Shown here: piece by piece, positions 16,620-64,000 of the stretch
How positions within the stretch are numbered: position 1 is the first letter of the stretch
Layout: each line of letters begins with the position of its first letter
From: Mucidula mucida
Lineage: Eukaryota > Basidiomycota > Agaricomycetes > Agaricales > Physalacriaceae
DNA: 64,000 bases
Assembly: GCA_015501055.1 (NCBI GenBank)
Contig: JADNYV010000054.1
Span: forward strand, 146,864-210,863
Direction: 5' to 3'
Position numbers and translations under genes: made by a program
The notes under the pieces: generated by a model
What the model saw: the letters and a program-made list of their open reading frames with translations, nothing else
What the model was told of the DNA's origin: nothing
Databases searched by the model: none

Positions 16620-16743
16620 CCTGCGCCAACTTGGAAAATCGTTGTCTAGTGTCTATGCGTCGTGCGGGAACAGCGCTGTTGGTGGGAGGATCTAAGCCGA
16701 AATTACCTTTTAAGGATGATGCTCTCTCTCTCTTGCCACTATC
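16620..16743. promoter_or_regulatory. Short bidirectional promoter region (MYND gene / MSH4)
   Basis: Only 124 bp separate the divergent start codons at 16619 (minus) and 16744 (plus), so control elements of the two genes must overlap. No TATA box is evident. Confidence 0.4.
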
Positions 16744-20516: not shown

Positions 20517-20820
20517 CGTCTTCCTGCCTCTAGCTAGTGTAGTATCCTGCGTTTGTTCAAATGCCTCTTCACTTCGATAATACTAGATCATAGAATCAAG
20601 CTGGTAAATTTGTGCACGAAAACCGATCTCCTTGTCAGTCGTCATTCGACTTGTCACCCTACAGGGCTAGCGGTGTTGTTCATGTTGTACTTCCTGCATT
20701 TCAGATCGTCAGCAAGACGCATTCAGAAGGAATATAGGGTTCAAGGCATAGATAGAAGTCATACACTCATGAGTTAGTTGTATGTTTGTGGATATACATA
20801 TAAGCTGCATACATGACTCG
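20517..20820. other. Convergent intergenic region, no gene seen
   Basis: About 300 bp between the stops of MSH4 and the D-lactate dehydrogenase; 3' untranslated sequence of both is expected. Confidence 0.35.
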
Positions 20821-23157: not shown

Positions 23158-23437
23158 CTCGAGAGCGATTGGGGGTCCTGTGATCTTGATGGTCTGAGCG
23201 TGGAACCTTTACGGCAGTATGGATGCCACGATGAACAGTCTTATTCGCCAGAAGCGGGGTATCGAGCGGCGAAGTCCCGCATGCGAGTACATGATGGTAA
23301 TCGGTGCCACCGTACTGGCGAGGGAAAGGCACAAATAGAGATCAACACCGACCTCGCCCGCGCTCTCAGCAAAAGCACATCAAATGGTAGCAATTAGGAT
23401 TTAAAGATAGCGTACGAGATATATAGATGTATAAGCG

Positions 23438-25366: not shown

Positions 25367-25749
25367 AATTTTCGAGTTTCCGTTTTGGACAGCGGTGGAG
25401 AGGCAGGATGAATGGCGGAGAGGCAGCGGCAACTGAGGTAGGTCTGTGGGAGGCTGGGATTGAGGATAATTCAAGGGAACAGTGTTGAGAGCTAGGCGGT
25501 ATGCTGCCAAGAACGCATCGAACACAGTACGAGCAAGGACCAAGGCCAATGTTGTCGTTGTGGTTCTCGTCAGGACGCAAAGCATGGTCCGGCATCCTGA
25601 TCGGCACAACGTGCGAATCCTCACAGTCATACTGGGACCATGTCTCTATTTATTCTGTTGCATAATTGTGTAGAATTACATTGAAGATCTCCTCTACCAT
25701 CTTGAACTATAATACAAACGAGAACCAAATTATTACCGGGTATTAGTCT
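25367..25749. other. Intergenic, no gene seen
   Basis: Upstream of the F-box start (minus) and downstream of the NAD kinase stop (minus). The stretch 25470-25630 is an open minus-strand frame but low in coding character. Confidence 0.35.
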
Positions 25750-28633
25750 TTATTCATGCATCGCTGTCGCTAGCAGCGCTATCGCTGCTCTCGTCATGTC
25801 CCCACACGGCAAACGTTCTATGCCCCGTATCCCTTGACCGGGAACGGTGGCGATGGCGCAAATTCGCCATTGTAGGAGTCTTGACTTCGTCAAATCCCTG
25901 TCCTTGGGGATCCGACTTTTGCCACTAGCGCGTTTGGGAGAATACAAGTCATCCCGTGCGCCGTGTTGTCCAAGAAAACTTGGTCCCGAGTGTGCAGTGC
26001 CCTGCTCCGAGTCGTCCAAGTCAAACTCTACCCGATGCCGTGGCGAGACACCATTGACTGGCAGATGAGGCTCGGGTCCTGCGAAACGACTGGGTGTTTC
26101 GACGCCAGAGCGGAGCCCGTTTCGCGAACGAGAGCGTGATTTTTTTGACCTATCCTTTCTGAAAGATGTTTGAAGTAGAGCTTGATGAAGTTTGTTCTCT
26201 TCGATCAATTCATTGGCCTTTTCGAGTCCAATGGCCTCTGAAGAAGGCGACAACACGTTCGGAACAGCGGCTTTGGCTGCTTCGGGAGATGAATCGTCAA
26301 TGTCAAACTTGTCCTCCTCCTCCTCCGCGTCGTCTTCGTCTGAAACTTCGTCCTCCTCTTCGTCTTCCAGAGATTCTTCTGGTACGTCGGGCGTTGTGGC
26401 GCCAGAGACATCGCCCCGCTTGCCGTGCTTCTTTGGCTTGGCGGGCTCTTCAACGACGACAAATGATTTCTGTCGTTCTCGCTCGTTCCACTTGAGCGTT
26501 CGTGAAATGGCATGGAACCAGTCCGTCGATTGTTTGTCAGCGCAGACTGTCGGAAATGGGTATTTGGATGCAGTGACTTTGATATGGTCTCCCTCTGAAA
26601 TACCGCGTCAAATGATGGAAAACAAACAAGGTCGATCGACCTACGCTTCAGTTCGACTCTTCCTCGGCCGTCGAACGATGCCCATGCCGTGCTTCGGGAA
26701 TTGAAAGGAACACATATCCGAAGCTCCATACTGTCAGGCAGTAACATCGGTCTAAACGAAAGAGTGTGGGGACATATCGGAGTGATGAGAAGAGCGGGTA
26801 TCTCAGGATGTACGAGCGATCCGCCGGCAGATAACTGGGAAATTGAGTGTCAGAATAGCGCAACACATAATTACTCTCACATACCGAATATGCCGTCGAA
26901 CCGGTCGGGGTAGATACAGTCAGCCCATCGGCTTGAACGGTAGTCATATGGTGCTCATCGCCTATAAGAAACTACATTAGTCACTTAGCCTTACAGCGAA
27001 ACAAGGAAGACATACCGAATAGTTCCAATAGACTGACATAGGGACTTGGACCGCGATCCACAACAAGATCGTTCAAGACCTCAAAGGTCTCCACTGGCCT
27101 CGTCGTGAAACACATAATCTCCTTGTCTTTCGCCGATTTGCTGCCTTCATTCATGGCAAATCCGCCATTCCAGCCGCCTTCCAGAGCCTCCCAGCCTCCT
27201 TTTTCCACGTTTTTCATCATGATCTCACCGGTCTCCCCTTTTTTGACAGCCTTGCAAGCCTTGCCGGTGTTCGCAACAGCGCGATACACTGTGCAAGTGA
27301 AGCGCATGCGCAGGTTGACTCGTATACCATTGTCGATAACAGAGTCCATCACAGATTGATGATCCGCAAAATCGAAATTGGTGAGGAAGCCCAGGGAACC
27401 CAAGGCAAAGGGAAGGACGGGTGGAACGATGCGTTGAAAGAGCCATGAAGTGAATAACACAGTTCCATCGCCTCCAAGCTAGTAGAGACTTAAGTATGAA
27501 GATGACGATAACAAGGATACACGTACAGTCACGACAAAGTCGAACAAATGAGGACTGTGGCTGCACATATCACTAGTCCAGTAGCGAAGTTGGCCCTCTT
27601 CTTTCTTGAGATAGAACTCTTCCTTGGGCACCTGGGTAGATGTCATTGATGATAAGGAAGTACTGCTAGAAGTGCGTCGACGTGGGAATGGGGCAAAGAG
27701 CTCGGGATGGTCGCGTTCGATACCCTCTGCATCGAAACGCCTTGAATGACGCAGCTGATTGTCGACATAGCTATAATAGATTTAGCTCAAGAAGATGATA
27801 CGCGCAGTCAGACGACGCACACAACCATCCCCCTGGCCTGTCCGGGGCGCGGCCGAAGCATTAGATAGAGCGCAAGCTCTCGTGTCAGCTTGATCAATCG
27901 GTTATCCCGAGCCTTTGTGATGATGAGAATGTTTTGAATGTTGGATCTAACGCGAGCACGACCTGCACATGAAGATGAGCATAGTCCCTGTAAAGATATA
28001 TAGAGACGAACCGAGCTGTTTGCTCATTTCTCGCACACCGACAGCCGTCTCTGCAAGCTGCCTTGTGAGGCTGCCGCCATATTCGTCGTCTTCGTCGTTG
28101 CTAGCCATGGCCGAGCTAGAACCTGATCTGGGCGAGGAGCTAGAGGGCGTGTATCCATTGGTGCTGCCATTTCCGTTAGTGCGCTGCAAAGAAGGCGCGA
28201 CGCCGACATCGCCAAGAAATGCGTTTTGTTTATTTCGGAGCCAATCCGTCAAGGATGCCCCTTTGTCGAGATGGGAATGGACAAAACAGGGGGAATGCAT
28301 GGGCGGCTGATGGCCGTTGAGCTGAGGACGATGTTGAGCAACGGGTGCACTGGACGTGGGGGTCAGAATGTTGGTGGTATTGGGTATGCCGTTTAGACCA
28401 TTTTTCTTGATGCCGGGGGGTGACGTCTGTTCCAAAACGATATCGGACTGCCACGACGGATCGAGATTGAGCGACAATGGACGACCAGTGGACAGACGGC
28501 TGCCTTTGCGCGAGAGCGAGGGCCGAAAGGGAGATTCATAGGCGTCGACGACAATCTCGGGTCGCGGAGATGTGGGAGGCGTCGAGAACGTATCTTCGAC
28601 GTCGGGAGAAACGAGCCCATTGGTGGAAGCCAT
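25750..28633 (-). CDS. NAD kinase (ATP-NAD kinase family), with C-terminal frame shift
   Basis: Phosphorylates NAD(H) to NADP(H). Starts at 28633 ([16 protein letters not shown]) with a Ser/Pro-rich regulatory extension of about 200 residues. The catalytic part spans several exons: [35 protein letters not shown] (GGDGT motif), [36 protein letters not shown], and [20 protein letters not shown] then [20 protein letters not shown], and [13 protein letters not shown] long acidic and Arg/Ser-rich tail follows. Length and layout fit cytosolic Utr1-type enzymes of fungi. Near 25917 the tail changes frame. The upstream frame stops at 25750-25752. The other frame, which reads [14 protein letters not shown], stops at 25754-25756. 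Confidence 0.9.
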
Positions 28634-46469: not shown

Positions 46470-47501
46470 TCAAGAGATATCCTTTTCAGGTTCTGAAGGC
46501 ATTTTAGCGTCCTTGACCATAGTCACTGGTGATCCAGCCAACTTCGACTTGAGTGCCTCATACTTTTTCCTCTGCTTCTCGCTGACACTAGGCCCCACCT
46601 TGTCCAACGCACTGATAAAGTCGGATATTCCAACGGTCACCCGAGGTCTCTCAGCGACAGAATTAGTCTCATCCAGCAGATCTAGAGCTCCCAACGTTCG
46701 TCGCAAGGCAATGACCCCGGCCTCACGAACAAGCGCAGCAAGATCAGCTCCGCTGAAGCTATCGCAGCGCTCACGTACAACATCCTCCACTTCCTGCATT
46801 GCACAGCCCAGCGGCACTTTCCTTGTCATTGTGCGCACAATTTCGGCACGCTCTTCGGGGCGCGGCAAATCGACGTAAAGCAGCTTGTCCAGTCTGCCGG
46901 GGCGCACCATCGCTGGGTCAATCATGTCCGGACGGTTGGTAGCCGCGATGACATAGACGCTCTTGCGCGCGTCCAGGCCGTCGAGCTCCGTGAGGAGCGT
47001 ATTTACAACGCGCGCTGAGGATTCAGACTAGGGAACGCGATGAATGGAGTGTCTTGCGCAAAATGTGAGAGACCCCCTACCAAGTTGTCGTCCCGGCGGG
47101 GGACGAGGGCATCCAACTCGTCGAAGAAGATCACACACGGAGACGAAGCACGCGCTCGAGAAAATACTTGGCGTACAGCTCTCTCACTCTCGCCGACGTA
47201 CTGAACGATCATATGTATGAGAATTGATTAAGACACAAGATACGGCATACCTTGTTCAGCAACTCTGGACCTTTCACGCTGATAAAATTTGCCCGAGATT
47301 CATTTGCAACCGCTTTAGCCAACAGTGTCTTCCCGCAGCCCGGTGGGCCCCAGAGCAGCACTCCACACGCCGCTTCGATACCGACCGCACTGAACAACTC
47401 TGGTCTTCTGATGGGCTGTACGATAGCCATATGAAGCTCGTCCCGAGTACGGTGCAATGCTCCAATGTCGGCCCAGGATACGTCTGGGACGGTGGCGAAA
47501 C
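46470..47501 (-). CDS. RIX7: RIX7/NVL AAA ATPase, C-terminal half (D2), severed by retroelement
   Basis: C-terminal part of the nucleolar AAA ATPase that strips factors from pre-60S ribosomes. Reading begins at the insertion edge with [20 protein letters not shown]. Then [20 protein letters not shown] (Walker A), [58 protein letters not shown] (Walker B), [60 protein letters not shown]. The lid and C-terminal tail end at the stop near 46470. All D2 motifs are intact. Its 5' continuation lies 10.8 kb away at 58269-59815. It has no promoter or start of its own, so it is probably silent except through LTR-driven transcription. Confidence 0.9.
47497..47501. repeat. Target site duplication, left copy
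   Basis: GAAAC immediately left of the LTR at 47502; identical to 58269-58273. Confidence 0.9.
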
Positions 47502-47717
47502 TGTAACCCGTAGGTACACTGTCGAGGTCCGGAGGGCCCGAAATAACACGATAAAGCAATAAGATTGAGTCCAAATGGGACCTCGGGGACCCGTAAGCGT
47601 AGAAACGGATAGAAAACAAAGCCAGTAGTCGTAGTAAAAGAGTAAGTAAAGATCGCCCGAAGGCGATCGACATAACGTTCGTGCCAAACATGTCCATATC
47701 GGGAACTCCCCGTTACA
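47502..47717 (-). repeat. 3' LTR (216 bp)
   Basis: Begins TGTAAC and ends GTTACA; compared by eye with 58053-58268, no difference was found. Confidence 0.95.
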
Positions 47718-47728
47718 CCCTCCCCCTC
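47718..47728 (-). promoter_or_regulatory. Polypurine tract of the retroelement
   Basis: Minus strand reads GAGGGGGAGGG directly before the 3' LTR, the expected place and composition for the plus-strand DNA primer. Confidence 0.8.
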
Positions 47729-47766
47729 AAGACCGAATCATCGATGAAGGTCTTGACCACAGGGCT

Positions 47767-49593
47767 TTACTCCGACTCGATAGGCGACGATTCGATGGGC
47801 GCGCTGTTTGACGCACCCCCCGCCTCGGAGGATGTAGTTCCGGTGCCTGCCATCACCACATCCCGTCCGCCCTTAGTCTTCGTCTGTCGCGCCTTATCAT
47901 CAAGATCCTTCTGGCGTAGCAGCACTCTGCGCCATCGATAAAACGCGAGATCAATCACCGGCCATCCGACTGTCTCTGGAGACCAGTATTCAAGTGCGCC
48001 TTCGAGTTTGGGCGGCATACCATATACTACGAGCCGCTCTGGTACGCCCCTCAGAATGAATTCCCATTCTCCCCGCTCATCCGCTGTGAACATAGATTCC
48101 AGGAACATCACGCACTGCATTGCCCACGGCCACGCGTCAGTGACCATCCGTATGGATACGCCAACCTCCGCGAAGAAGCACGCCAACTCGCGTACATCGA
48201 GGTTATCCACCTTCTCCACTGGGAATGGTTGAGGGGAAAACGACGGCGTGATAGTCACACCCGCCTCCGCTACTAGCTCCGCATAGAGTCCGACGCAGGC
48301 GATGAGGTGTGTCGCCGTGAGAGTGAAGCGTCGACGATTGCGGTTCGCCATCGTCTGCTTCTTGGTGTCCGGTGATAATGCCGCCACCATCTGGTGGCCG
48401 CGAACCGTCCGAAGATCCACAAATCCCTTGTCATCAGATACGTGGATGCCAGGCGCCAGCTCGGGAAGGGCGGTCCCCGCCGCCCAAACAGCAATTTGCA
48501 ACTCGGTGGCCGAGGGGCCTGCTGAGTCGGGTCGTTTGAACTTCCTGAACTCGTGATTCACCGAGAAGGTGAGCAACCGCTGCGCCGCCTCATGAGGACG
48601 CCCGCGAGACTGATGCCACCTAGGAAAGTTCTTCGCGGCCTCCGTACGCATATGTTTCAATGCAGGGGTAAGCGATATTGTCCCGTTCGTTGCGTACTCC
48701 CAGTGCTCAGCCAACCATAGAACGGCTTGCAGCAGAAAGTACGCCTCGTAGTTGCCCGGCGTTCTCGCGCTTCGCAACAGCGCTTTTGCGCTCTCCAGAT
48801 CATCAGGGAAAGCCGGATCCGCAAATATCGTCGTCTCCGGCGCTGAGTCGGCAAGGTACTCGACGATTGCTACCGTCACGGCTGCTTCCCTCAATCCGGA
48901 CCTCTTGTCAGCCGCGGTCAGTCGCGATACACGATCCGCCGCTGGGACAAGGTGCGCCAACGAATTGGGGGCCCTCATGATGTCGAACTGGGCTTTCGAC
49001 GGGTCCTCACCATAGACCATGATTATGTCTGGTGATGCCCTCTCCTCGCCTTGTCCAGCATCATCGCTGACGAAGGTCTTAGCTAGTTTGATCGCATCGG
49101 CGACCAACTTCACTTGTGTCTGGTATATTGGCTCCGTCGCATCCAGACGTAGTCGTTTCCGACTACGGTCCACATCCGACGTCACCGCTGCCTTGAGACT
49201 CGTGTTCTCCAATTGCAGCTGCTGAATGTCATGCTCGAGACGTGCGATGACTTCATCTGCTTTGGCAAGGTCCTCCGCTACGCCGGCCAACATCGCGTGA
49301 TACTGGTTGTCCCGGGCCGCAACAAAAGTAGGCTCTCGCCTCTCTTGTGGCCCGTACAAGTGTACACGATAATCGTCGCAAATCGTACACTTCCCTGCCG
49401 GGTGAGTGATCGTCCCGCAACGGTCGTTATACTCGAATGCCAGCTGGGGCACACGATAGTCGGGACGGAACGAGGTGGAGCCTGTACCGCCACGACCACC
49501 GCCACGACCGCGACCACGCCCATCAGCACCACGAAACGTGGTACCACGTGCACGACCTCGGAGGAAGTTCGACGACGACATAAGGAATAGCAA
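47767..49593 (-). CDS. Retroelement third ORF (608 codons), unknown function
   Basis: Lies between pol and the 3' LTR in the same orientation. Start at 49593 (MLFLM) or, more likely, 49581 (MSSSNFLRGRARG). Residues 10-40 form an RGG-type basic region (GRGRGGGRGG), suggesting RNA binding. Residues about 55-80 hold a Cys/His cluster (RCGTITHPAGKCTICDDYRV). Residues about 105-140 form a coiled coil (VIARLEHDIQQLQLENTSLK) followed by a basic run (RSRKRLRL). The remaining 450 residues are globular, with no motif I know, ending in a Ser/Glu tail. No signal peptide or membrane helix, so it is not a typical envelope. Coding character is strong (one frame open for 1.8 kb). It could be a second nucleocapsid-like, silencing-suppressor or captured host gene; none is shown. 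Confidence 0.85.
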   Translation of the reverse strand: MLFLMSSSNFLRGRARGTTFRGADGRGRGRGGGRGGTGSTSFRPDYRVPQLAFEYNDRCGTITHPAGKCTICDDYRVHLYGPQERREPTFVAARDNQYHAMLAGVAEDLAKADEVIARLEHDIQQLQLENTSLKAAVTSDVDRSRKRLRLDATEPIYQTQVKLVADAIKLAKTFVSDDAGQGEERASPDIIMVYGEDPSKAQFDIMRAPNSLAHLVPAADRVSRLTAADKRSGLREAAVTVAIVEYLADSAPETTIFADPAFPDDLESAKALLRSARTPGNYEAYFLLQAVLWLAEHWEYATNGTISLTPALKHMRTEAAKNFPRWHQSRGRPHEAAQRLLTFSVNHEFRKFKRPDSAGPSATELQIAVWAAGTALPELAPGIHVSDDKGFVDLRTVRGHQMVAALSPDTKKQTMANRNRRRFTLTATHLIACVGLYAELVAEAGVTITPSFSPQPFPVEKVDNLDVRELACFFAEVGVSIRMVTDAWPWAMQCVMFLESMFTADERGEWEFILRGVPERLVVYGMPPKLEGALEYWSPETVGWPVIDLAFYRWRRVLLRQKDLDDKARQTKTKGGRDVVMAGTGTTSSEAGGASNSAPIESSPIESE

Positions 49594-49833
49594 GCTGGGG
49601 TGAATTCAGCACAACACTGCTATCACCCCGGCTTAAAACTATTTTAAGTCCCGACTTGCCGCGCTGTGAGTCAAGTTCCACCTGGCTAACACACCGTCCT
49701 CATGTTGTACACCAGGGAAAAATCTGACCTCTTCGCTTATGCAGCTACCCGCGCGTTGGGAGCAATATCATTCCGATCCTTCATCATTGGAATGACACAG
49801 CCACCACGGGCAGTATCACGACCACTTTTAGGT

Positions 49834-52800
49834 CTATCCCGTCTTACGCGCTCGAGCGCGTTTTGCAGGTGTTCTTGATGTTGCACGGGCAGGCTTTGGT
49901 AAGTCCTCCCATTTCGCGACACCTTTCAATTTGAGGTACTCATCAAGCGCACTTAGATCCTTGACGTTATCTAGTGGCTCAAATGTCTCATCGCCTGACA
50001 TCCACCGAACGTGGAACCAGATCTTTGTCCGACGCCACTCGTGGTCCGCGATACCATCAACAAAGAATTCTGCGTCGGGTGACGCGCCGAAGTCATATGG
50101 TTCAGGCGCGCTACGATCTGGGAAAAGCAGTGCGTCTGACTCCTCATATGGGCGGAGCAGGCTAACGTGGAACCTGTTATGCAGGCGTCGTTTCACTAAT
50201 GTCTCGGGCAATTCCAGCGTGTACGTTGACGTCGCTGGGAATGCCTCTTCCACTGTATATGGCCCGATAAACTTAGGTAAGAGTTTTCGAGCCCTGCCTT
50301 TTGGGAAGTTAATGTTCCGAGTTGACAGGTAAACTCTCGACCCGGGCTTAATCTCGGGCTCCTCGCGACGCTTCCTGTTTGCTTTGTGAGCTTGAAACAC
50401 GCGTGCCGCTATGATTGCCTCATGCGCATCGTACAGATTCTGCATGGCTTGTGCGCCGAAGGCGCGGATACCCGGCTGGATGTTAGGGAACTCAGGAACC
50501 TCTCGAATCATCGATGGTACGTAGCCGTACACCAACTCAAAAGGTGCGAATCCTGTCGTCTCGTTTATGCTAGCATTCAGAGCAAACTCGACTAATGGAG
50601 TCTTCATCAGCCAGTCCTTCTGATCAGCGCGGATTGCTGCTCGGAAGATCTGGGCGACCGACCGATTAGCACGTTCTGTGATACCATCCGTTTGTGGATG
50701 AAACGAGGTCGACATCAGCAACTTGGCGCCCAACAAGCGATGGAGCTGCCGCCACCATGTTGACGTGAATTTAGAATCACGATCTGACACGATCGACTCT
50801 GGGAGGCCGTGCAGTCGCACAATCTCTCTCAGATAGATCAACGACAAGTCCGTCGCAGTATTCGTGGTATGTACGGGTATCAAATGCACCTGTGATGTTA
50901 ATCGACAGATGATTACCCACAGGTAATTGTATCCTTGCACCTCCGGAAATGGGCCAACAAAGTCCATTGCTATTGAGCGCCACTTTCCCGTTGGAACGGG
51001 AAGGGAGTGTAGCTTTCCAGCCGGTGCGCGATAACTTCCCTTAGCCGCATGGCATGTCTGACACGTTTTGCAGAACCTGTCGGTCATTGCGGATATCTTC
51101 GGCCACCAGTACCAGCGCCGGACATAATCAGATGTGCGTTGAGCACCGAAATGTCCCACTGTCCGGTGAGCCGTTTCCAGTATTGCTCCTCGTAGAGAGC
51201 GTTGACCTGCAGGCGACTTCGGGATGCATAGCACACGTTCGCCGCCTAGGTTATTCGTGAAAATCAGGCCCTCAGTTACTGAAAACCGTGGGTGATCTTC
51301 AGGCTTCTTGATAATCTTACTGAACAACGGATCTTCAGAGTACCACCGCCGAATGTCAGCGAGGAACTCATCATCCGTCTCCAGCGTCAGTGGCATCACA
51401 TTGTCCTTCGCGCGTGATTCGAACACAGTTGGGTTAACTGTTGGCAGCTCGTGCGGTACTTCTGGGTCAGGTTCCCGCGCCGCCTCCATCTCCGCTGCTT
51501 CAACATCACGCGGCTCAAGGCGCTCTGCCAGTTTTCGCGCCTCAGTCTGCCGACGAGTCTGCATAGCCCGCAGGTGCTCGTGGACTTCCTGCAGCCGACC
51601 ACTCGGTAAATCCTCGCCGAGTCTATCTAGACGAATATCTGCATTGGCATAGTCTTCGGGAGGCTGTACCTCATCAGGTTCGTCTGTCTCGTAGTAACGC
51701 GACAGCGCGTCCGCAACCTTATTATTGACGCCCTTCACATAGTTGATATCGAAGTCAAAACGCGCTAAGTATTCCATCCAACGCATCTGTCGGCTTGACA
51801 GCCGACGTTGCGTCTTGAAAAATTCAAGTGCTTTATGGTCGGTCACCACATGGATGCGATAACCGACTAGCTTATCTTCCCACTTTAGGAGTGCCTCGAG
51901 GATGGCTAGCGTCTCTTGCTCGAAGACTGCATAGTGCCTCTGAGAGTTTGAAAACTTCCTAGACATGAACCCCGCTGGCCGACATGTCTGCCAAGTAGGT
52001 CCTTGCCCATACATTGCACCTACACCTCTAATTGACGCGTCACAGATTACCCATATAGGTTCATCTAAGTCTGGTCGAATCGGGCGTAGGATTGGCGTTG
52101 AGCAACACAATTGTTTGATTCGCTCAAAGCATGTATCATGTATCGGTCGCCAATAGAACGGTTGATGGTTCATAGCCATTTCCGATAACGGCGTCGTATA
52201 CGCAGTGATATCCGGCAAGAAATGTCCCAGGTATGTCACCATACCCAGAAACTTCTGTACATCATTGTAATTTCGTGGTACACGCCAATTACGAATCTTC
52301 GCCAGCTTATCTGTGTCTGCATGAAGGCCACGATCATCAATCATGTGCCCTAAGCAGTCCACTTCAGCTGCGTAGAGATCTAACTTCTCCGCTTTCAGGT
52401 AGAATTCGTGCTCCCGAAGGCGCGCAAATATGAGACCCAAGTGTCTCTCATGTTCGGCTATCGAATCACTGAATACGAAGATGTCATCAAGGTAAACATG
52501 CATGAATATTCCAATATAGTCTTGGAACATCGTGTACATCAGTCTTTGGAATGTAGAGGGTGCGTTACAATCACCCTGCTGCATTACGTGACTTACAAAC
52601 GTCCCAAACACAGTTGAGAACACTGACTTCCAGACATCGCCGGGAATCGTTCGCACCTGTTCATAGGCATTTGACAAATCAATCTTGCTACGCACACGCT
52701 TGCGCGCCACGTCCAGCCGGATATGATCCTGATCTGGAAATGGCGTCACATCCTTGTGCGTATTCTCATTTCGTTTACGACAATCAATTGTCGTACGCAA

Positions 52801-53514
52801 GCTGCTATCCTTCTTTGGGACACAAAGCATTGGCGCAGCTTGTGTAGCCGTCTGACGTTCCCACCATCCCGACCGCTGATACTGCTTAATCTTCTCAAGA
52901 AGCTGCGGTTTCATGGAGTCGGGACACTTGGGCGTGTAGTACTGGTACTTCTTTGCTTCGTCGATCAGAGGAATCGTATGATTCACCTCTCTCAACGGTG
53001 GCAATTTCTCTGGTGGGCCGGCAAGTATATCTGCACAGCACTCCATCCATTGCTGACGCAACCTGGGAACGTCCTCTTCAGTCAATTCCTGGTCACTATC
53101 CTTTCTTGTTCGCATTTGGAACAGCCCCGCCGTTGCTTGAAGGGACTCCTCCAAGTTCAGACAAGGTATGTCATCAATGACTTCCGCCTGGGTCTGTGCT
53201 ACCGTCTCGTCTTCTACGTGTGTTTGAACACGCGAATAACGAGGCAGCTCCAGCTCACGCAGTAGCTCATCAATCTCGTTTAGATAGATTTTTGTCTGCG
53301 GATCGGCAATGTCCATAGCCATCGCCCGATTCGCAATATCTTCAATATCCTCAATCGTTATCCCATCCTCGGGACCTAGCAAGACCGGCAAGTGTCGACT
53401 GAGACCCGCAGATGCAGATTCATTCGATTTAGCCTTCTCGGACTCCTCGACGTGCATCCAAAGCGGAGTCGTGCGAACTTCTCGACCTTGGTTGAATACC
53501 CGAGGCGGGGACTG
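49834..53514 (-). CDS. pol: Retroelement Pol: reverse transcriptase, RNase H, integrase, chromodomain
   Basis: First ATG at 53457; the frame opens right after the UGA at 53515-53517 with 19 codons (QSPPRVFNQGREVR...). Domains by residue from that ATG: reverse transcriptase about 170-400 with QQGDCNAPSTFQRLMYTMF and the catalytic YLDDIFVFSDS near 320; RNase H about 450-580 beginning ICDASIRGVGAMYGQG; integrase HHCC zinc finger about 760-805 (HRTVGHFGAQ...CKTCQTCHAAKG); the DDE core beginning MDFVGPFPEVQG with SIVSDRDSKFTSTWW and SFHPQTDGITERANRSV; GPY/F module FIGPYTVEEAF; chromodomain about 1130-1180 (HEWRRTKIWFHVRWMSG, ETFEPLDNV). All catalytic residues visible are conserved. No protease here; it is in the upstream ORF. 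Confidence 0.96.
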   Translation of the reverse strand, partial: QSPPRVFNQGREVRTTPLWMHVEESEKAKSNESASAGLSRHLPVLLGPEDGITIEDIEDIANRAMAMDIADPQTKIYLNEIDELLRELELPRYSRVQTHVEDETVAQTQAEVIDDIPCLNLEESLQATAGLFQMRTRKDSDQELTEEDVPRLRQQWMECCADILAGPPEKLPPLREVNHTIPLIDEAKKYQYYTPKCPDSMKPQLLEKIKQYQRSGWWERQTATQAAPMLCVPKKDSSLRTTIDCRKRNENTHKDVTPFPDQDHIRLDVARKRVRSKIDLSNAYEQVRTIPGDVWKSVFSTVFGTFVSHVMQQGDCNAPSTFQRLMYTMFQDYIGIFMHVYLDDIFVFSDSIAEHERHLGLIFARLREHEFYLKAEKLDLYAAEVDCLGHMIDDRGLHADTDKLAKIRNWRVPRNYNDVQKFLGMVTYLGHFLPDITAYTTPLSEMAMNHQPFYWRPIHDTCFERIKQLCCSTPILRPIRPDLDEPIWVICDASIRGVGAMYGQGPTWQTCRPAGFMSRKFSNSQRHYAVFEQETLAILEALLKWEDKLVGYRIHVVTDHKALEFFKTQRRLSSRQMRWMEYLARFDFDINYVKGVNNKVADALSRYYETDEPDEVQPPEDYANADIRLDRLGEDLPSGRLQEVHEHLRAMQTRRQTEARKLAERLEPRDVEAAEMEAAREPDPEVPHELPTVNPTVFESRAKDNVMPLTLETDDEFLADIRRWYSEDPLFSKIIKKPEDHPRFSVTEGLIFTNNLGGERVLCIPKSPAGQRSLRGAILETAHRTVGHFGAQRTSDYVRRWYWWPKISAMTDRFCKTCQTCHAAKGSYRAPAGKLHSLPVPTGKWRSIAMDFVGPFPEVQGYNYLWVIICRLTSQVHLIPVHTTNTATDLSLIYLREIVRLHGLPESIVSDRDSKFTSTWWRQLHRLLGAKLLMSTSFHPQTDGITERANRSVAQIFRAAIRADQKDWLMKTPLVEFALNASINETTGFAPFELVYGYVPSMIREVPEFPNIQPGIRAFGAQAMQNLYDAHEAIIAARVFQAHKANRKRREEPEIKPGSRVYLSTRNINFPKGRARKLLPKFIGPYTVEEAFPATSTYTLELPETLVKRRLHNRFHVSLLRPYEESDALLFPDRSAPEPYDFGASPDAEFFVDGIADHEWRRTKIWFHVRWMSGDETFEPLDNVKDLSALDEYLKLKGVAKWEDLPKPARATSRTPAKRARARKTG

Positions 53515-53517
53515 TCA
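53515..53517 (-). promoter_or_regulatory. In-frame UGA between gag-protease and pol (candidate readthrough stop)
   Basis: Minus strand GAT TGA CAG TCC. The preceding ORF and the pol frame share the same phase: 19 sense codons lie between the stop and the pol ATG. UGA followed by C is generally the leakiest stop context. Confidence 0.6.
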
Positions 53518-56500
53518 ATCCCTTGGCTTCTTCTTCAGGTGAGCGTAACGCTCCCCCTCAGCAGAAGCCCTGGCCTTGCCCTTGATATCTGACTTCAAAT
53601 CCTCCCGAGGAATAGACCGGCTGGGCCTTGGCTTTGTTGGGACGACTAGACCCTCCAGCTTCTTCTTCGGTTGAACGTTCGCCGAATATCGTCGAGCAAT
53701 CTCGTGCAGCTCTTCCTTCTCTAGTAGAGTAGGCATGGGCTGGCCCTTCACACGGACTACATCGTACTCAAAGTCCAATGAAATCTTGTGTCGCCTCATA
53801 AACGACGTTCCGACAACAACATCATAACGATCAACGTTCGCGATATCAAAATATTCGCGCCCAGAGACCGCTATCTTACTACTGTCATATGAGAAGGGTG
53901 CGAACGCCCCATATATGATTTGCGACCGACTGCCTTTAGTACCAAGCTGAATCGTAATAGGCTCATCAAGCTCAAACAACTCCGGCTGGACTAGGTGAGC
54001 AAAATCGTGGCTCATAAGCTCAGTTGTGCACCCACTATCACATAGTGTGAACGCCTTATGTCCATTAACCTCAAGAAACACTGCTAGGCATCGCTTCTCT
54101 TGGTTCGTACGACGAGGGCGTTTTAGCGAGCGAGGCAACTGTGAGCGCGTAGGGTCTAACGTTGGAACGTAGCCCCGCTTTCCATCAGCGTCTCTCGTCT
54201 CGTCAATCTGCATAGTCCGTAGGAACTCGCCATATTCCAGGACATACTCGTCCTCTGATTCAGCGACGCTTTCGCAATCACTATCTGAGTATGACTCCTC
54301 TGTCTCACGCATGCCATAGGCGCGTACGTCCTCCCAGTCACCAGCCCACATCATCCCAACTCGTGGCTGGTCTGATGTGCCGGCGTCGACAGGATCCTCT
54401 TGATTTGTGTTTACCACATCATCATCCGCCGCGTCCTCATCGAATTGGGATCCACCCCAAGGATCGGCTTCCTCTGGATTATCCCACTCGTGAGGCTCAT
54501 CCTCACTATCATCATCATCTACAATGTGATATAGCGTCTCCGCGGCCCGATCTTTGTTCAAGCTATACAGCGGGCAGACAGTGTCCTTTGCAAAGTGACC
54601 TTCCTGTCCGCATGCGTAACAAGTTTTCGACTTTGCCCCACGCACTTTGACATCTTTATTCCCAATGCGTTGGGTTGTCTGGTTCTGTCCACCTCCTCGA
54701 TACGGCGCACTACGACCTGATTTTCCGTTATCCTGCTTAGAAGTGGCGGGTGCAGGTGGTCGCGCGTCACGTCGAGGTGTTCTCTCTCGAGGTATGGGTG
54801 CCGGGACAACATCGCGTGCCTTTATTGTTGGCAATGCATGTCGCTCCTGGGCCACTATCCGAGCGCGAGGATGTACTCCGGAGAGGGCATCCTTACGTTC
54901 AGACTTCATACTCTGTTCCAGTGCTAATGCTCTCTGCATAATCACGTTCAGAGAGGCGGTACGTTCGGGCGTAATACCCTCGATCCGCATCTGCCGGCGA
55001 ATATACTGTGGCAGCGCGTTATATAGTATCGAATGGAACCGATATACATCTGGCGGCGTTGGCATCAAGCTTGCTAGACTGATCATATAGTAGAATAGTG
55101 CACGGGCACCACCACTAACCATGTATTTAGCAGACTCAAGGCGCGATGCAGTCAAGCGCAGTGAATCATCATCAACGAACTGCACAAACAAACTGTGGAG
55201 TACCTCAATGAAAGAAGTACCATGGTTTGCTGCAGCCTTATATGTATTAGTGACCCGGCGGTAGTGTTCCAACGCACCCCCAGCCAGGCCTTGAGCTAGC
55301 AGAGTGATACGTGTCAGGTCAGCCTCAGATGGCGCGTCAGTATCCTCCAATGTGGGAGGCCCATGTGCACCTGTCTGATCCAACCAGCGTATCATGTCGC
55401 GAGCCCATCTATCAAACACCGTAATGTCATTCGTAGCACCTGTGAATTTAGGCGCTGAATCAACATTGCGTGCTATTATCTTTGCAAGTTCACGATCACG
55501 GTCGTTCAGTTCGCGATATAAGCGCGCCATGACCATGTCTTCGATTTCGAAAAAGATCGCATCCAATACTGATACTCCAGTCTCGCGTACTGGAGGTACA
55601 TATATGAACTCGTCTTTCGTCTCCGGCTTGACCTCATTCATAACCGACGTCGAACGACGAAGACGCTTGGCGTAACGGTTGACTGGTGGGCGGCCATTCC
55701 GGCTATCATCTCCATCATCACCGGGACCATCGTCTCCATCATCTCCATCATCGTCACCATCTCCTGGAGGTGGCATTTTATCCCCCGGATCAGGCACATT
55801 ACGACCAGTATTACTTGGTCCTGGTCCATGACCAGCATCATCTCCACTATCGCCGGCACCGTCGCTATCAGAGCCACTCGGATCGGGGTCTGGTTGATGT
55901 GGCGGCGTAGGCAGAGCACGCACTGGCACAGTCTGTACCGGTGCCGCTTTGTGCCGGGTTATCGTAGGTGAGCGCTGAACCTGAGTGGTTACTCGTCTCG
56001 AACTCGCCACATGTATGGCCGGATCCGACCTTTGTGGTCGACGTCCCGGCGCCTTCTCAGACGTGTTCTTCTTCCGGGGCGAAACAGCCTCCTGGCTAGC
56101 CCGTACATGGACACTTGCGCGACGCGGTGCCTGTACGACAACAGGTGTCTCCTCCACAATACTTGTGCGACGCGGCCTCTGCACTATGGCAGGTGTCTCA
56201 TCCACAATACTTGTGCGATGCGGCCTCTGCACTATGGCAGGTATCTCATCCACAATACTTGTGCGACGCGGCCTCTGCACTATGGCAGGTGTCTCGTCCA
56301 CGATACTTGTGCGACGCGGGTCCTGCACTATGGCAGGTGTCTCCTCAATAATACGCGTCATTCGTACCTGAACTGGCTCCGGCTCTTCAGTCTTGATCCC
56401 CTTCAATACCGGGATCTCAACATCGTCCTCGACCAGCACACCGAGTCGTCCAAACACATCACGTCGTCCAAACACGTCAGACAGTGGCACTGGTGGCTTC

Positions 56501-57795
56501 TCCGATATTAGTATTTGCGCGTCTGTGTGCGCTTCATGCACTTTCAGGTTGTCAGGCTGCGGAACGTCGCTGTACTTTGCACGCGCCGTTGCCGCTGCCT
56601 GCTTCCTTTCTCTCCTCATGCGCTCCCAAACGGTCTCAGTCTCCTTCTGAGCCTGTACCACTGGAGTCTCCGGTACAACATCTTCAGCCTCCTGTGGGAC
56701 CTGTACCTCTGGCACGACAGCTGCAATCGGGCCATCAGTTGCCTGCATCCATTCATCAAGCTCCCAGGTAGGCGACGGAAATCGCGCGATAAACGGCGCA
56801 CATCTAGCATCGTCCAGATCAGGAATCTTTACTTGAATGGTTGGTTTCGAGGCAATATAGGCCATCATATTACCATCAATTATCTCTAACACAACATCTT
56901 GCTTGGGTACTGTACTAGTGTTGTACTCAACCATCTGTCCGTTGTGAATCATCTGTAGAACTCCACGCTCGAACACGTCCTGATGCCACGCCTTCACCGA
57001 AGCAGAAGAGCGCGCCGTCCGACCTGAAGATCGTGAAGTAGTCGACATCGAAGACGCCGGGCGAATTATCCCCGCCGGCTTTTCTGTCCTTGATCGTTCC
57101 ATCGCCCTGACGCGACGCACATACTGGGAGTCAGTCTCTTCCTCCTGTCGAGGAAGAGCAAGATTCTGTTGAACTGCGTCCATCGTCTGGTCAAATGGAT
57201 TAGCCAAATCACCTCGTGCAGCATGGCTGCGAAATGATTCAACATACATTTCCACGCGGGCGTTAACCTGCGGTGGCAACTCGAGCACTTGACGCCCTCC
57301 CTCACGCACGTTGGCCTCAAAATTGGCAACGTTCGTAGGTGCATCTTTTGCTCCATCAGATACAACGGCCCGGGGACTAACACTCGCTTTCACTCGTGTC
57401 GCCCCCAGATCCTCCGACTGTCGATTCGACGTGTTTACCGCGTCAAACCGACTATCGGGTAATGGTCGGTAGTCGCCTCGAACGCGCCGCGTAGGTGTGA
57501 CCTTAGGCGGCGTGCTCGAGACAGCATGTGTTGGTGTAGGCGGCAGTCCCGACTGGGACCGCGCCGGCTCGGTTGACGTGATGGGGGGCTGGAATGCCTG
57601 AATGCCTCCAGCGTCACCTATGTCGTCCAAGCTGATAGGTAGCGGGACATCCTCAGCTGCCTGAGGCTGTCGTCGCCGAGTCTGCTGCGGCAGGTCGTCC
57701 TTCGTGAATTCCGGGAGTTCCTGCCGCAAGCGTGCCGACTGTCGCGACACATGAGAGGGTGCCGACTGTTTCGACGCCCGTGAGGTTTCGCTCAT
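53515..57795 (-). CDS. gag: Retroelement Gag with zinc knuckle and aspartic protease
   Basis: 1426 codons from 57795 (MSETSRASKQSAPSHVSRQS), long for a Gag-protease. Residues 1-740 are low-complexity and charged, including a 48-bp tandem repeat encoding VDETPAIVQRPRRTSI (about 480-560) and a Gly/Asp-rich stretch (PGDGDDDGDDGDD). A capsid-like helical domain spans about 745-960 (APKFTGATNDITVFDRWARD, ALPQYIRRQMRIEG). The CCHC knuckle is CYACGQEGHFAKDTVCP at about 1060. The retropepsin follows near 1250: AFTLCDSGCTTELMSHDFA, with a DSG active site, and YDVVVGTSFMRRH. It ends KKPRD at the UGA. Gag should build the particle and the protease mature it. Confidence 0.93.
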   Translation of the reverse strand: MSETSRASKQSAPSHVSRQSARLRQELPEFTKDDLPQQTRRRQPQAAEDVPLPISLDDIGDAGGIQAFQPPITSTEPARSQSGLPPTPTHAVSSTPPKVTPTRRVRGDYRPLPDSRFDAVNTSNRQSEDLGATRVKASVSPRAVVSDGAKDAPTNVANFEANVREGGRQVLELPPQVNARVEMYVESFRSHAARGDLANPFDQTMDAVQQNLALPRQEEETDSQYVRRVRAMERSRTEKPAGIIRPASSMSTTSRSSGRTARSSASVKAWHQDVFERGVLQMIHNGQMVEYNTSTVPKQDVVLEIIDGNMMAYIASKPTIQVKIPDLDDARCAPFIARFPSPTWELDEWMQATDGPIAAVVPEVQVPQEAEDVVPETPVVQAQKETETVWERMRRERKQAAATARAKYSDVPQPDNLKVHEAHTDAQILISEKPPVPLSDVFGRRDVFGRLGVLVEDDVEIPVLKGIKTEEPEPVQVRMTRIIEETPAIVQDPRRTSIVDETPAIVQRPRRTSIVDEIPAIVQRPHRTSIVDETPAIVQRPRRTSIVEETPVVVQAPRRASVHVRASQEAVSPRKKNTSEKAPGRRPQRSDPAIHVASSRRVTTQVQRSPTITRHKAAPVQTVPVRALPTPPHQPDPDPSGSDSDGAGDSGDDAGHGPGPSNTGRNVPDPGDKMPPPGDGDDDGDDGDDGPGDDGDDSRNGRPPVNRYAKRLRRSTSVMNEVKPETKDEFIYVPPVRETGVSVLDAIFFEIEDMVMARLYRELNDRDRELAKIIARNVDSAPKFTGATNDITVFDRWARDMIRWLDQTGAHGPPTLEDTDAPSEADLTRITLLAQGLAGGALEHYRRVTNTYKAAANHGTSFIEVLHSLFVQFVDDDSLRLTASRLESAKYMVSGGARALFYYMISLASLMPTPPDVYRFHSILYNALPQYIRRQMRIEGITPERTASLNVIMQRALALEQSMKSERKDALSGVHPRARIVAQERHALPTIKARDVVPAPIPRERTPRRDARPPAPATSKQDNGKSGRSAPYRGGGQNQTTQRIGNKDVKVRGAKSKTCYACGQEGHFAKDTVCPLYSLNKDRAAETLYHIVDDDDSEDEPHEWDNPEEADPWGGSQFDEDAADDDVVNTNQEDPVDAGTSDQPRVGMMWAGDWEDVRAYGMRETEESYSDSDCESVAESEDEYVLEYGEFLRTMQIDETRDADGKRGYVPTLDPTRSQLPRSLKRPRRTNQEKRCLAVFLEVNGHKAFTLCDSGCTTELMSHDFAHLVQPELFELDEPITIQLGTKGSRSQIIYGAFAPFSYDSSKIAVSGREYFDIANVDRYDVVVGTSFMRRHKISLDFEYDVVRVKGQPMPTLLEKEELHEIARRYSANVQPKKKLEGLVVPTKPRPSRSIPREDLKSDIKGKARASAEGERYAHLKKKPRD
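56115..56355 (-). repeat. 48-bp coding tandem repeat in Gag
   Basis: About five head-to-tail copies encoding variants of VDETPAIVQRPRRTSI; central copies are nearly identical, outer ones (IEETPAIVQDP, VEETPVVVQAPRRAS) diverged. Period of 16 codons keeps the frame. Confidence 0.9.
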
Positions 57796-58052
57796 CGTCG
57801 TAGCCTAGGGCGTAGACGAAAGCGAAAGGAATGGGGGGAGCGCTGGCGTCCTGTGACAACCAACGTATGGGCGACGGCGACTGGCTCGCCGACGTCCGTG
57901 GGGGGCTAAAAAAAAATTTTCAGCAGTAGCAAAAGGTGTCTAACACACCGTGTAAGTATGTGAGGCCTTTTGCCTCAAATCCGGAGGCTCGACCTGTTGT
58001 CGAAGCCGTTTGCGCTCCCTGTTGGACGCAACGTGTTGCGTGTTAAAAAAAG
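57796..58052 (-). other. Retroelement leader (between 5' LTR and gag)
   Basis: 257 bp with no long ORF. Directly after the LTR the minus strand reads CTTTTTTTAACACGCAACAC, where a primer binding site is expected. It lacks the usual TGG that pairs with tRNA CCA ends. Confidence 0.6.
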
Positions 58053-58268
58053 TGTAACCCGTAGGTACACTGTCGAGGTCCGGAGGGCCCGAAATAACAC
58101 GATAAAGCAATAAGATTGAGTCCAAATGGGACCTCGGGGACCCGTAAGCGTAGAAACGGATAGAAAACAAAGCCAGTAGTCGTAGTAAAAGAGTAAGTAA
58201 AGATCGCCCGAAGGCGATCGACATAACGTTCGTGCCAAACATGTCCATATCGGGAACTCCCCGTTACA
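58053..58268 (-). repeat. 5' LTR (216 bp)
   Basis: Reads as an exact copy of 47502-47717; carries the presumed promoter for element transcription. Confidence 0.95.
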
Positions 58269-58273
58269 GAAAC
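58269..58273. repeat. Target site duplication, right copy
   Basis: GAAAC immediately right of the LTR; matches 47497-47501. One of the two copies is the original RIX7 codon sequence. Confidence 0.9.
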
Positions 58274-59815
58274 CTTCGCGTTTGGAGGAGGGTTGGACCT
58301 GTGTTAGGGCAACAGTGAAGTCTGCGGCTGTGATGTAGAGCGGTTCTAATTGCTGGGTGGTCAAAGAATCAGGATGGGCGTTCAGAAAGTGGGCTATAGA
58401 GTGAATGGAGGAGGTGGGGAAGGATAATGAGGAGGTTGAGGGTGTCTGAGAAGTAGAAGCAAAGTCTACAGACGGTTGAACTACTTCATCAACTTGCATG
58501 TCAGCATCCTGGTCTGTAGAGACCGAAGGCAGAGTCAAAGTTCCTTCGGAAAGTTGTTTGAAGATACGTTTCACAGCGATGATACCTGCTGCTGCAGTGA
58601 GAGCAGACAGATCCGCACCGACATAACCTGGCGTAGCCTTGGCAAAGGCAGTGAAATTAAAGTCCCCTTCTAATCTTAGCTTTGAACAGAGGACTCGTAG
58701 AATTCTACAAACAAAGTAAGAACTCATCCGACAGTGATGTCAGGGACAACAGACCTTTCGCGCCCTTCATCATCCGGAACACCCATACTGATTTCATGAT
58801 CAAATCGACCCGCTCGTCGCAGCGCCGCGTCTAGAGCGTCCGGACGATTCGTGGCGCCAATCACAATAACGGGTTTGTGTTCATTCTTCTCCCACGACAT
58901 ATCTAGCAACGTTAATTCGCGTCGATTGATACAGACAACCCCTTCAACTTACCGTCCATGCACGTAAGGAATTGGGCCACTATTCGTCGCTCCATTTCTC
59001 TTTGAGCACTTTCACGTTTCGGTGTCACAGCGTCGATCTCGTCGATGAATAGTATACATGGCGCGACTCTCTGGGGACTGTGTGAGAATAAAGCATTGAG
59101 CAGCGCGAATTGATGTACCTTTGCTTCATCAAAAGCGTCTCTCAGTGTCTTTTCCGATTCTCCGGACATACCAGATACTATAGATGGCGCCGATATATTT
59201 ATGAATGGCATACCAAGTTCCTGTTCGATATCAGGGCGCGCGTCACTTTGAAGGACAGATTCTTACCCCAGCCATGGCATTTGCAAGAAGCGTCTTCCCA
59301 CATCCGGGTGGGCCATGAAGCAATACGCCTCGAGGGGGCTGGACGCCGGTATGCAGATATACTTCCGGATGGCAAAGCGGCATTGCTACGATTTCGAGCA
59401 TCTTCTCAACACAAGCATCGACTCCACCAAGATCAGATAGACGCGCGGTAGGTGGTGTGTAGTTCTTTGGAGGTGGATTAGACGATAATTTGGTTCGCTT
59501 CGCGCCGTCTTCGCGGGAAGACCTGATTTTGCGTTTGGCGGACGAGGGCGGGGGGTCGGTTGGTTCTGGCACCACCGACGGAGTCTGTACAGAAGCGATT
59601 GTTGCCGGTCCCTCGTTGTTTAGCTCTACCGGGAGAGTTGAGGGTTCATCAGGGGGAGTCTGAGGCGCGCTCGATGCAGCATTCAAGTTTAATTTGGTTT
59701 TGCGATGATTTGACCAGAGTCCTTGCATGTTTCTGTTGAGAACATTGGAGCTCTACCTACGTTTCTGTAAGTCGATTACCGGAATAGCATCTCTTGGACG
59801 CACCGATCCTTCCAT
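58269..59815 (-). CDS. RIX7: RIX7/NVL AAA ATPase, N-terminal half (D1), severed by retroelement
   Basis: Start placed at 59815 ([19 protein letters not shown]), joined by a short intron to [15 protein letters not shown]. Earlier exons may exist, since family members have a longer N-terminal domain. A basic, Pro/Ser-rich linker leads to D1: [40 protein letters not shown] (Walker A), [53 protein letters not shown] (Walker B), [58 protein letters not shown]. The inter-domain linker ends QPSSKREGF at the LTR. The product, if made, would end inside the LTR and lack D2. D1 and D2 together form the Rix7 hexamer that removes Nsa1 from pre-60S particles. Confidence 0.9.
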
Positions 59816-60277
59816 TCTGAGCTGAAAAAAAGAATTCTACGTCTGAGGAAAATTTGGGAAGAGATAGCGTGAGAATGATCGGATCGAATACCAGACGCAC
59901 TAACTCGCACTACGCGTTCGGGGTACATGCTATCTCATTCTCTCAACGGATCGCCTATCTACAGCGGGGCATGGACTAGCATTGGCGCCTAAGGTGACGT
60001 GCAAAACTAGATAACGCGTCGTCTTCCGTCTCCGCCGTTCGCCAGCGCGTCGTGAAATCCACGAGACGAAGAGAATGCACGACAGGACGCCGTACGCATA
60101 ACATCTTGCACGCTACGAGCCTCAATCTGAACCATTTGGCCAAGCTATGCACTTGCCGGACAATCCAGAATGGATACTATCTATGCCATAACAACAAGGA
60201 GCTATAATGCATGTTCGACATAGTACCATACAACTGACATGAACACAACAGATAGCATACAATAAGCCCTCCTTTAT
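59816..60277. other. Intergenic, possible extra 5' RIX7 exon
   Basis: Minus strand around 59945-59870 has a short ATG frame (MYPERVVRVSAS) ending at a GT donor, and a strong pyrimidine-AG acceptor lies just before 59815. A 5' exon of RIX7 is therefore possible but not established. Confidence 0.3.
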
Positions 60278-61587
<1,310 letters not shown>

Positions 61588-62186
61588 GTCTTGAGGTCAA
61601 TATCGTCGATATTTTTGCAGTGTGGACGACGGCAGAGCTCCAAGGCATTTGCCGAAAACTGTACAGTTCCGGACAGCGGCCCGGAGGCCGGTCAGAGATG
61701 AGCCCTGCTCGACGCGTGCTATGATTCCCCATCAACGCATCGTATAACGCCTGAAAATGCGACGCCGATAGCTAGAGATCAATTTCCTACAATAATCGTG
61801 CGCAATCCAGAAATTTAATGATCAGCAAGGCGCGTACGCTGTTATAAGCGCGTCAAGTGATCAATTTGGATCCATCTACTCGAGATACTTGTGTTATAGA
61901 GGAAGGATACGATGTATGTATACGACAGACTTCATTAAAAGAGGACATCGAACCGAAAATGGAAGTACGAAAGATAGATGGGATCTCGATCAGCTTATGT
62001 GATCAAGTTGGCTTTTGTTACCGTCTCCCTTCACTCCGTCTTTCTCTCTTACTCCTCCTCCTTTTCTTGTGCGACAGAGCTAATTCATTGCATTATCGAT
62101 ATCAACTGTCCCTTTCTGCGATACCTCAAAACACCACCTACTTGTACCCAGTCAACGGTGACCCACAGGGGACCGCCAGCATATAG
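61588..62186. other. Divergent intergenic region (RPL4 / unknown gene)
   Basis: About 600 bp. Holds the RPL4 promoter and the leader of the plus-strand gene. A frame at 61857-62186 has a hydrophobic run but no family match; I take it as leader sequence. Confidence 0.35.
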
Positions 62187-64000
62187 ATGTCTGAGAGAGA
62201 CGTGCATATGAGTGGGCCTGAGCCTGTTGCCCGACCTGGTGCTGCCTCTCCCAGGTCAGCGCAGGAGCAAGCTACAACGATTGACAAGTCAGCAACTGAT
62301 ATATCGTCCCTCATCAAGTATGTCTGGCGTCTATATTCACCGCGGAACCTGATCTTCCTTCAGTCCTGCCCCTTCCGCTCCTGCTCCTGCTACTACTCAT
62401 GAACGTCATGTCCAACCAGGCGCCGCTTCACCTCCGCTTAGCTCTAGCCGGTTCCAGTCTTTACCTACCCCGCATAGGTTCGTCTTGGTACCTTGCGAGA
62501 TAGGTAGTGGCTCACCATACACAGTCCCAGCCATTTTGGACAATTCACATTTCCGCAGACACCAGAGTCGCCGCTTGCCCATCAGAGGTGCGTGGCCACT
62601 TCTGCGGTCCATCTCCGTTCCCACTGATCATCGCTCAAGTGCATCCTACACTGCTCCTCGATTGCCCTTTGATGCTAGACCGTACGTTCCCGTACAAAAC
62701 TCTACGGTGCTTTCTCATGACATTTCATAGCTCTGGAGATTCGACCAGTCATTCCACCCCGCGCCATCCACAGATGATGACACCCGACTCCAGGTGCGTG
62801 TGTTTACAAAGTGCTTGTTCTGCATCTCAAAATCATCAGTCCTTTCGCTTCAAGACTCAACACGAATGCATCCGTAGCTCAAGCGCCGGCTCAGCGAAAT
62901 GGTCCTGTGTAAGTTATCTAAACCATGAGTAAAACCGGGCTTATCCGTTGATAGGATGCCTGTGGCCATCCCATTTCGGCTAGCCAATTCCCCAACTACC
63001 TCGCCGACCGATTCCTCTCGACCTTCCCAAGCGACATCCCCATTCATGGCCAAATTGTTGGCGGCCGAACGTCAACAAAGGCATTCGGCTCCCAACTCAT
63101 CTCAAGCATCTCCCATGCAAATTGATGACTTGTTCTCGACTGGCCCAAAATCATCGCTCTCAACGCCTCCTACCTCTCCACCTATCAATATGACCTCTTC
63201 TTCATCTGTTCTTCTCCCCCCGCCTCCCAGTGTTGGTGGTGAGATAGACAGGATTCGTCAAGCAATGGCTCAAGAACAACAAGAGTTGGAAAGCCGTCGC
63301 CCCGACTATCTTCAACGAACCAAGCGCGAATCCGAGCCACCCAGCCTCACAGAGCATTCCGATATCCCGGTTCACCCTAGCGTTGGCATTTTGGAAAGTC
63401 CTAACAAGGGCAGGCGTATCAAACTTTTCCAGGAAACATCTGAAGAGAGCTTTGAAGAGAGTTTGATGGCTGGTGGGTACGGGCGTTATGTACGTATCAG
63501 CCGTTGAATCACTGTCTGGTACTAAGTATTTGCCAGAGAACTGCTGACTGGGTCCGACAACCACAGCCTCTTCTCCTTACGACTCCTGGCTCGGCAGGTT
63601 CCTCCAAGATACTTTCTGCCCTTGAAAAGGCTGAAGTAGAGGAACCACCACCTCCTACTGAGAAGGAGCTCAAGAAGCGGAAGCGCCTTGATGCCTTTAA
63701 GAGCAACACAGGTTCTCACTCTGGTCCGTCAACCCTCTTTCCTGTCGAGTTGGAAGGAAAAGGCCGCGTCTTGCTAGACATTCCAAACGAATCGCTGGTG
63801 GCGGATTCGCCTCGCAAACGAGGTGCCGCCCGTCGCCGAAAGAAGGGTGAACTGGCCAAGGAGGTTCCTGTGGTTCCTGCACCTGAAGAGCATCTTGATT
63901 CTCCGAATTGGTGTGATGCAGAGTTTCCTTGGCGGTTGCGCACCGAGGAGCGCACGGAGGCTGCGAGGTTGGAAGAACGTGCACGTTTGGCAATCATTGA
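62187..64000 (+). CDS. Unrecognised low-complexity protein (3' end outside window)
   Basis: Start at 62187 (MSERDVHMSGPEPVARPGAA), then several short exons separated by introns, e.g. a donor GTATGT near 62318. The clearest exon (about 62956-63488) encodes MPVAIPFRLANSPTTSPTD, Ser/Pro-rich text with many SP and TP sites, a predicted helix (GGEIDRIRQAMAQEQQELES) and RRIKLFQETSEESFEESLMA. The last exon (from about 63537) has TADWVRQPQPLLLTTPGSAG, LEKAEVEEPPPPTEKELKKR and a basic patch (SPRKRGAARRRKKGELAK), suggesting a nuclear protein. I recognise no domain. Many SP/TP sites suggest phosphorylation by CDK or MAP kinases, which is inference only. Frame runs off the window end. Confidence 0.6.

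Follow-up and report, generated by a model that had tools for sequence, protein, structure and literature searches.

The window, a stretch of 64,000 nucleotides from Mucidula mucida (contig JADNYV010000054.1, positions 146,864 to 210,863), harbors a RIX7/NVL gene, referred to here as RIX7 copy B, which is interrupted by a long terminal repeat (LTR) retrotransposon of 10,767 bp (47502-58268, minus strand). The element and the gene share the same orientation, and the parts of the gene and the ends of the element are arranged as follows:

58274-59815, minus strand: 5' part of RIX7 copy B, comprising the N-terminal region, the first AAA domain (D1) and the linker up to KREGF, with the start codon at 59815 (alignment with the intact copy on contig C141 and splice-site check).
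58269-58273, no strand: second copy of the target-site duplication GAAAC (read from the sequence).
58053-58268, minus strand: 5' LTR, 216 bp, TGTAAC...GTTACA, identical to the other LTR.
47502-47717, minus strand: 3' LTR, 216 bp, in which the D2 frame runs for 70 codons without a stop (47712-47503) and includes ATGs; a purine tract lies just upstream on the minus strand.
47497-47501, no strand: first copy of the target-site duplication GAAAC (read from the sequence; a single copy in C141).
46470-47501, minus strand: 3' part of RIX7 copy B, comprising ATVPDVSW, the second AAA domain (D2) and the TGA stop at 46470-46472 (alignment with C141 and AAA structure matches of the C141 counterparts).

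The two LTRs were identical at 216 of 216 bases, starting with TGTAAC and ending with GTTACA, and the one at 47502-47717 was assigned as the 3' LTR because the purine tract precedes it on the minus strand. GAAAC flanks the element on both sides as a 5-bp target-site duplication, and bases 47497-47501 double as coding sequence of copy B and as one of the duplication copies. On removal of the element and one GAAAC, the reading frame rejoins (KREGF followed by ATVPDVSW), giving a coding sequence of 741 codons without a stop and with seven GT..AG introns. The original prediction, made from the sequence of the window, had described two RIX7 halves flanking the element in the same orientation, a frame that rejoins in this manner, and identical LTRs with both duplications; all of these were confirmed. 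The break point follows codon 434 of 741 and lies within the linker between D1 and D2, immediately ahead of D2, and no single open frame of copy B spans both ATPase domains. Rix7, an AAA ATPase that acts in 60S assembly, is essential; in yeast, changes in the Walker A motif of either D1 or D2 cause severe growth defects, and a change in the D1 Walker B motif has a mild effect, according to the available text of PMC6355894. From these Walker A requirements, a RIX7 gene severed between its two ATPase domains should not be functional, and the insertion is likely to inactivate copy B. Recombination between the two LTRs would leave 221 bases, which is not a multiple of three.

Searches of the assembly with the flanks of the element matched each of them at two places, namely the window itself and contig C141 (left flank, C141:3927-4978, 85%; right flank, C141:4974-6509, 86%). 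The two C141 matches overlap by five bases, corresponding to exactly one GAAAC, and the target site is unoccupied there. Since the C141 gene has the same residues contiguous around this single GAAAC, the junctions in the window reflect an insertion rather than a chimeric assembly. The C141 gene, copy A (C141:3933-6524), is open over 748 codons and contains the same seven introns as copy B; its pieces matched structure chains of NVL, Rix7 and the Cdc48 family, with two tandem AAA domains, and the D1 and D2 motifs were found in both copies. In a search of the assembly with the copy A protein (60 of 73 candidates scored, 60 matches listed), the matches on C141 and the window contig were 80-100% identical to the query, and the other matches ranged from 31 to 63%, the highest extending over 32 residues. 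A genome search for a second RIX7, which had been proposed along with the original prediction, is thus answered by copy A. The proposed search for an empty-site allele had the opposite outcome: the flank searches of the assembly found no empty-site allele of copy B, and the single GAAAC site among the flank matches is that of copy A.

The two copies are 86.5% identical over the whole gene. Their exons share 1941 of 2190 positions (88.6%, first exon not counted) and six introns share 208 of 283 positions (73.5%, first intron not counted). Over 741 codons, synonymous divergence (dS) was 0.451 and nonsynonymous divergence (dN) 0.038, with a dN/dS ratio of 0.085, and both copies would have stayed under purifying selection.

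The best matches to copy A were two different proteins of Hymenopellis radicata (120 listed of 7993 matches), and the best 120 came from Agaricomycetes or unnamed sources, several of them named RIX7. By alignment, copy A was 94.7% and 92.9% identical to H. radicata proteins 1 and 2, respectively, and copy B was 93.4% and 94.3% identical to them. Nine informative sites grouped copy A with H. radicata 1 and copy B with H. radicata 2, two grouped copy A with copy B, and none favored the third pairing. In a maximum-likelihood tree of 13 sequences with midpoint root, copy B and H. radicata 2 were joined at 97/96. The likeliest reading of these sequence comparisons is that RIX7 was duplicated before the Mucidula/Hymenopellis split, and the duplication would have taken place in an ancestor shared with Hymenopellis. 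Among the four sequences, copy A carried 11 changes of its own and copy B 13 (H. radicata, 10 and 12), and hence there was no sign of relaxed selection on copy B before the insertion. No paper on a RIX7 duplication in Agaricales was noticed in a limited literature search, and none on Hymenopellis with whole genome duplication turned up.

In H. radicata copy 2 (P0002), which pairs with copy B, two stretches of D2 are missing from the deposited protein model, and the Walker A motif falls in one of them. The equivalent stretches of the window gene are 33 and 24 bases long, each starting with GT and ending with AG, and these are too short for ordinary introns. The stretch between the two gaps reads differently in H. 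radicata copy 2, and Pfam still lists two AAA stretches for this protein. The gene may be damaged and its model mended by the prediction program, or the annotation may be wrong.

The interior of the element at the copy B site contains three long frames:

53515-57804, minus strand: gag-like frame, 1429 codons, with a CCHC zinc knuckle, ending in TGA (frame listing and Pfam).
49834-53514, minus strand: pol-like frame, 1226 codons, with reverse transcriptase (RT), RNase H, integrase zinc-binding, integrase core and Tf2-type SH3 domains (frame listing and Pfam).
47767-49605, minus strand: third frame, 612 codons, between pol and the 3' LTR, without a Pfam family.

The gag and pol frames form one common frame separated only by the TGA at 53515-53517. 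In Pfam, the gag frame gave zf-CCHC at 23.5 bits (cut-off 20.8), and the pol frame showed the order RVT_1 (232-392), RT_RNaseH (482-586), Integrase_H2C2 (772-825) and rve (848-940), the integrase core rve scoring 30.3 bits, just under its cut-off of 32.6. RT followed by RNase H and integrase is the domain order of Ty3/gypsy elements, and the element in copy B is a Ty3/gypsy LTR retrotransposon. No aspartic protease family was listed by Pfam at E 0.01. Among 7984 scored candidates, the third frame had one match at E ≤1e-3, a hypothetical protein of H. radicata (45% identity, 39% of the query).

An LTR search of the assembly, in which only the best candidates were scored, returned 20 matches. 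Eleven of these cover 215 bases or more at ~100%, eight are 75-84% identical, and the remaining one is a partial match (98%) at the end of a contig. Among the 11 near-full copies, which include the two in the window, ten were identical and one had a single mismatch. Five different target duplications flank LTR copies (GAAAC in the window, CACCG in C860, TCAAG in C760, ACTTT in C263 and GCTGC in C273/C905), so that four further insertion sites of the family carry near-identical LTRs. The inner 1.5-kb ends of the copies compared differed from the window element by 0-2 mismatches and 0-2 gap bases each, the exception being an internal deletion common to C760 and C905. The element family has moved recently. 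The absence of differences within one 216-bp LTR pair is too weak for dating by itself, and the recency of the insertion, as originally claimed, is upheld by the other LTR copies. In the same family, the element at C905:762-10769 has one flank equal to the TCAAG side of C760 (116102-126109) and, at the other end, the GCTGC flank seen at C273:38217; this arrangement suggests that the assembly misjoined two loci at identical elements, or that C905 arose by ectopic recombination.

Taken together, we consider it highly probable that a Ty3/gypsy insertion inactivates RIX7 copy B and that the uninterrupted copy A would supply the essential function. A member of a recently active element family would have hit copy B of an already duplicated gene, and copy A would provide RIX7 function and keep the cell alive; the break in copy B is likely to be tolerated. 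The mechanism is likely an ordinary one, retrotransposon insertion into a probably redundant paralogue. Several points weigh against this interpretation. C141 and the window contig are part of one assembly, and their presence in the same haploid nucleus is presumed. The divergence between copies A and B (86.5% over the gene) is close to the ~85% genome identity between species of this group given in the available part of PMC9961838, and a small chance is left that C141 belongs to another species or to a nucleus that has diverged strongly. In the tree described above, H. radicata 1 joins the pair of copy B and H. radicata 2 at 90/91, with copy A outside; as the tree gives no clade of copy A with H. 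radicata 1, the date of the duplication rests on the copy B pairing and the site counts. The proposed role of copy A and the loss of copy B are predicted from sequence.

The original prediction had treated the interrupted gene as a candidate balanced lethal allele, and this was not supported, as an uninterrupted second RIX7 is present in the same assembly; the argument loses its premise because the interrupted copy is not the sole RIX7. On this reading, one of the two nuclei of a dikaryon would have lost its sole RIX7 to the insertion, and the other nucleus would carry the C141 gene as a very divergent allele, which we regard as improbable. It is favored by the lack of any other copy of the window RIX7 or of the C141 stretches searched, and by near-identical haplotype pieces in the assembly, one of which differs by the presence or absence of an LTR inside the window. 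Window 12100-27421 recurs at ~100% on contig C845 (15,007 bp), except that segment 15485-15773 is absent there (within C845:2900-3900). The two C845 matches around the absent segment overlap by five bases; the assembly therefore holds two versions of part of the window. For this group, the available text of PMC9961838 reports a dikaryotic strain and two monokaryotic ones, and ~85% genome identity between some members. Of the ways out listed with the original prediction, the existence of a paralogue is the one borne out by the assembly, and a dikaryotic or mixed sample gains from the C845 version but not from the copy B site, for which no empty allele was found.

Against allelism, C141 and the window have the gene in common and not its neighbors. 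DNA alignment of the window with C141 was confined to the gene (46495-47501 and 58269-59861), and beyond it likeness was seen only in protein, between retroelement frames. With 10 frames tested on each side, Pfam found families in six on C141 (a WD40 protein, pieces of fungal protein kinases and a copia-type RT) and in three around the window gene (nucleotidyl transferase, ERGIC protein and ribosomal protein L4), with none in common. Contig pairs that resemble haplotypes are far less diverged than copies A and B, with four mismatches in 2898 columns for C161/C567, 101 in 6990 for C137/C214, five in 6025 for the window and C845 (2 in 3016, 2 in 2002, 1 in 484 and 0 in 523), and none in 3699 for the window and C328. 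Among the best candidates scored, window 1-46494 and 59862-64000 had no 80-95% match in the assembly outside the repeat at 15485-15773; the nucleotidyl-transferase stretch matched C137 and C214 at 73%. On the same result, a hybrid genome with two subgenomes of ~86% identity is disfavored. Both versions of the gene also occur in H. radicata, the origin of its two proteins from one strain being an assumption.

Two further features of the window were observed during these comparisons. The segment 15485-15773 is a 289-bp LTR-like repeat (solo LTR) with ACGAA on both sides, ~32 kb from the RIX7 insertion. The end of the window's contig (window 60302-64000) overlaps C328:32061-35757 with no mismatch in 3699 positions and two gap bases, and C328 extends ~32 kb further.

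It is also conceivable, though quite unlikely, that both parts of the interrupted gene remain in use, with LTR-coded residues closing a D1 protein made from the 5' half and a D2 protein beginning from the 3' LTR. Reading on from the 5' half meets no stop in the LTR or in the next 75 bases, the D2 frame is likewise free of stops over 70 codons of the 3' LTR, where ATGs occur, and element and gene are equally oriented. Both frames could, however, be open by chance, the products are predicted ones, yeast needs the Walker A motif in both AAA domains (PMC6355894, available text), and copy A is present to do the work. There would be an equally slight chance that RIX7B has turned into two genes for D1-LTR and LTR-D2 proteins, a split Rix7 that might modulate or poison ribosome assembly beside RIX7A. 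An element wrongly joined into RIX7 during assembly, for which C905 with its C760 flank (TCAAG) on one side and C273 flank (GCTGC) on the other offers a parallel, is scarcely credible and was rejected, as the element here is bordered by the two parts of a single gene, whose meeting point is the same base in C141, and by matching GAAAC duplications.

What had been claimed as a lethal allele in an essential gene is now read as a case of duplicate-gene loss. The RIX7 pair is likely older than its species and under strong constraint, and one of its members has been interrupted by a retrotransposon of a family that is still young; a parallel loss of this paralogue may be under way in H. radicata, where the model of copy 2 lacks pieces of D2. 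The pair could offer a natural setting in which to ask for how long redundancy persists after duplication of a ribosome-assembly ATPase, and its interest, moderate in our view, lies in the recent loss within a constrained duplicate pair.

In comparison with known systems, both copies resemble RIX7/NVL, a type II AAA ATPase of 60S assembly (PMC6355894, available text), in having two AAA domains, and the proteins nearest to copy A come from Agaricales, with the name RIX7 attached to several of them in the source records; the difference is that RIX7 is present in this genome as two diverged copies, one of them interrupted. The element shares with fungal Ty3/gypsy elements the TG..CA LTRs, the 5-bp target duplication, the CCHC gag, the order of RT, RNase H and integrase, the Tf2-type SH3 domain and the purine tract before the 3' LTR, and it differs from them in the extra 612-codon frame between pol and the 3' LTR; Pfam listed no protease domain at E 0.01. 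Recent element insertions in a mushroom-forming fungus are likewise described for Marasmius oreades, where the active families named in the available text are hAT, Mariner and LINE (PMC9674265), whereas an LTR element is involved here.

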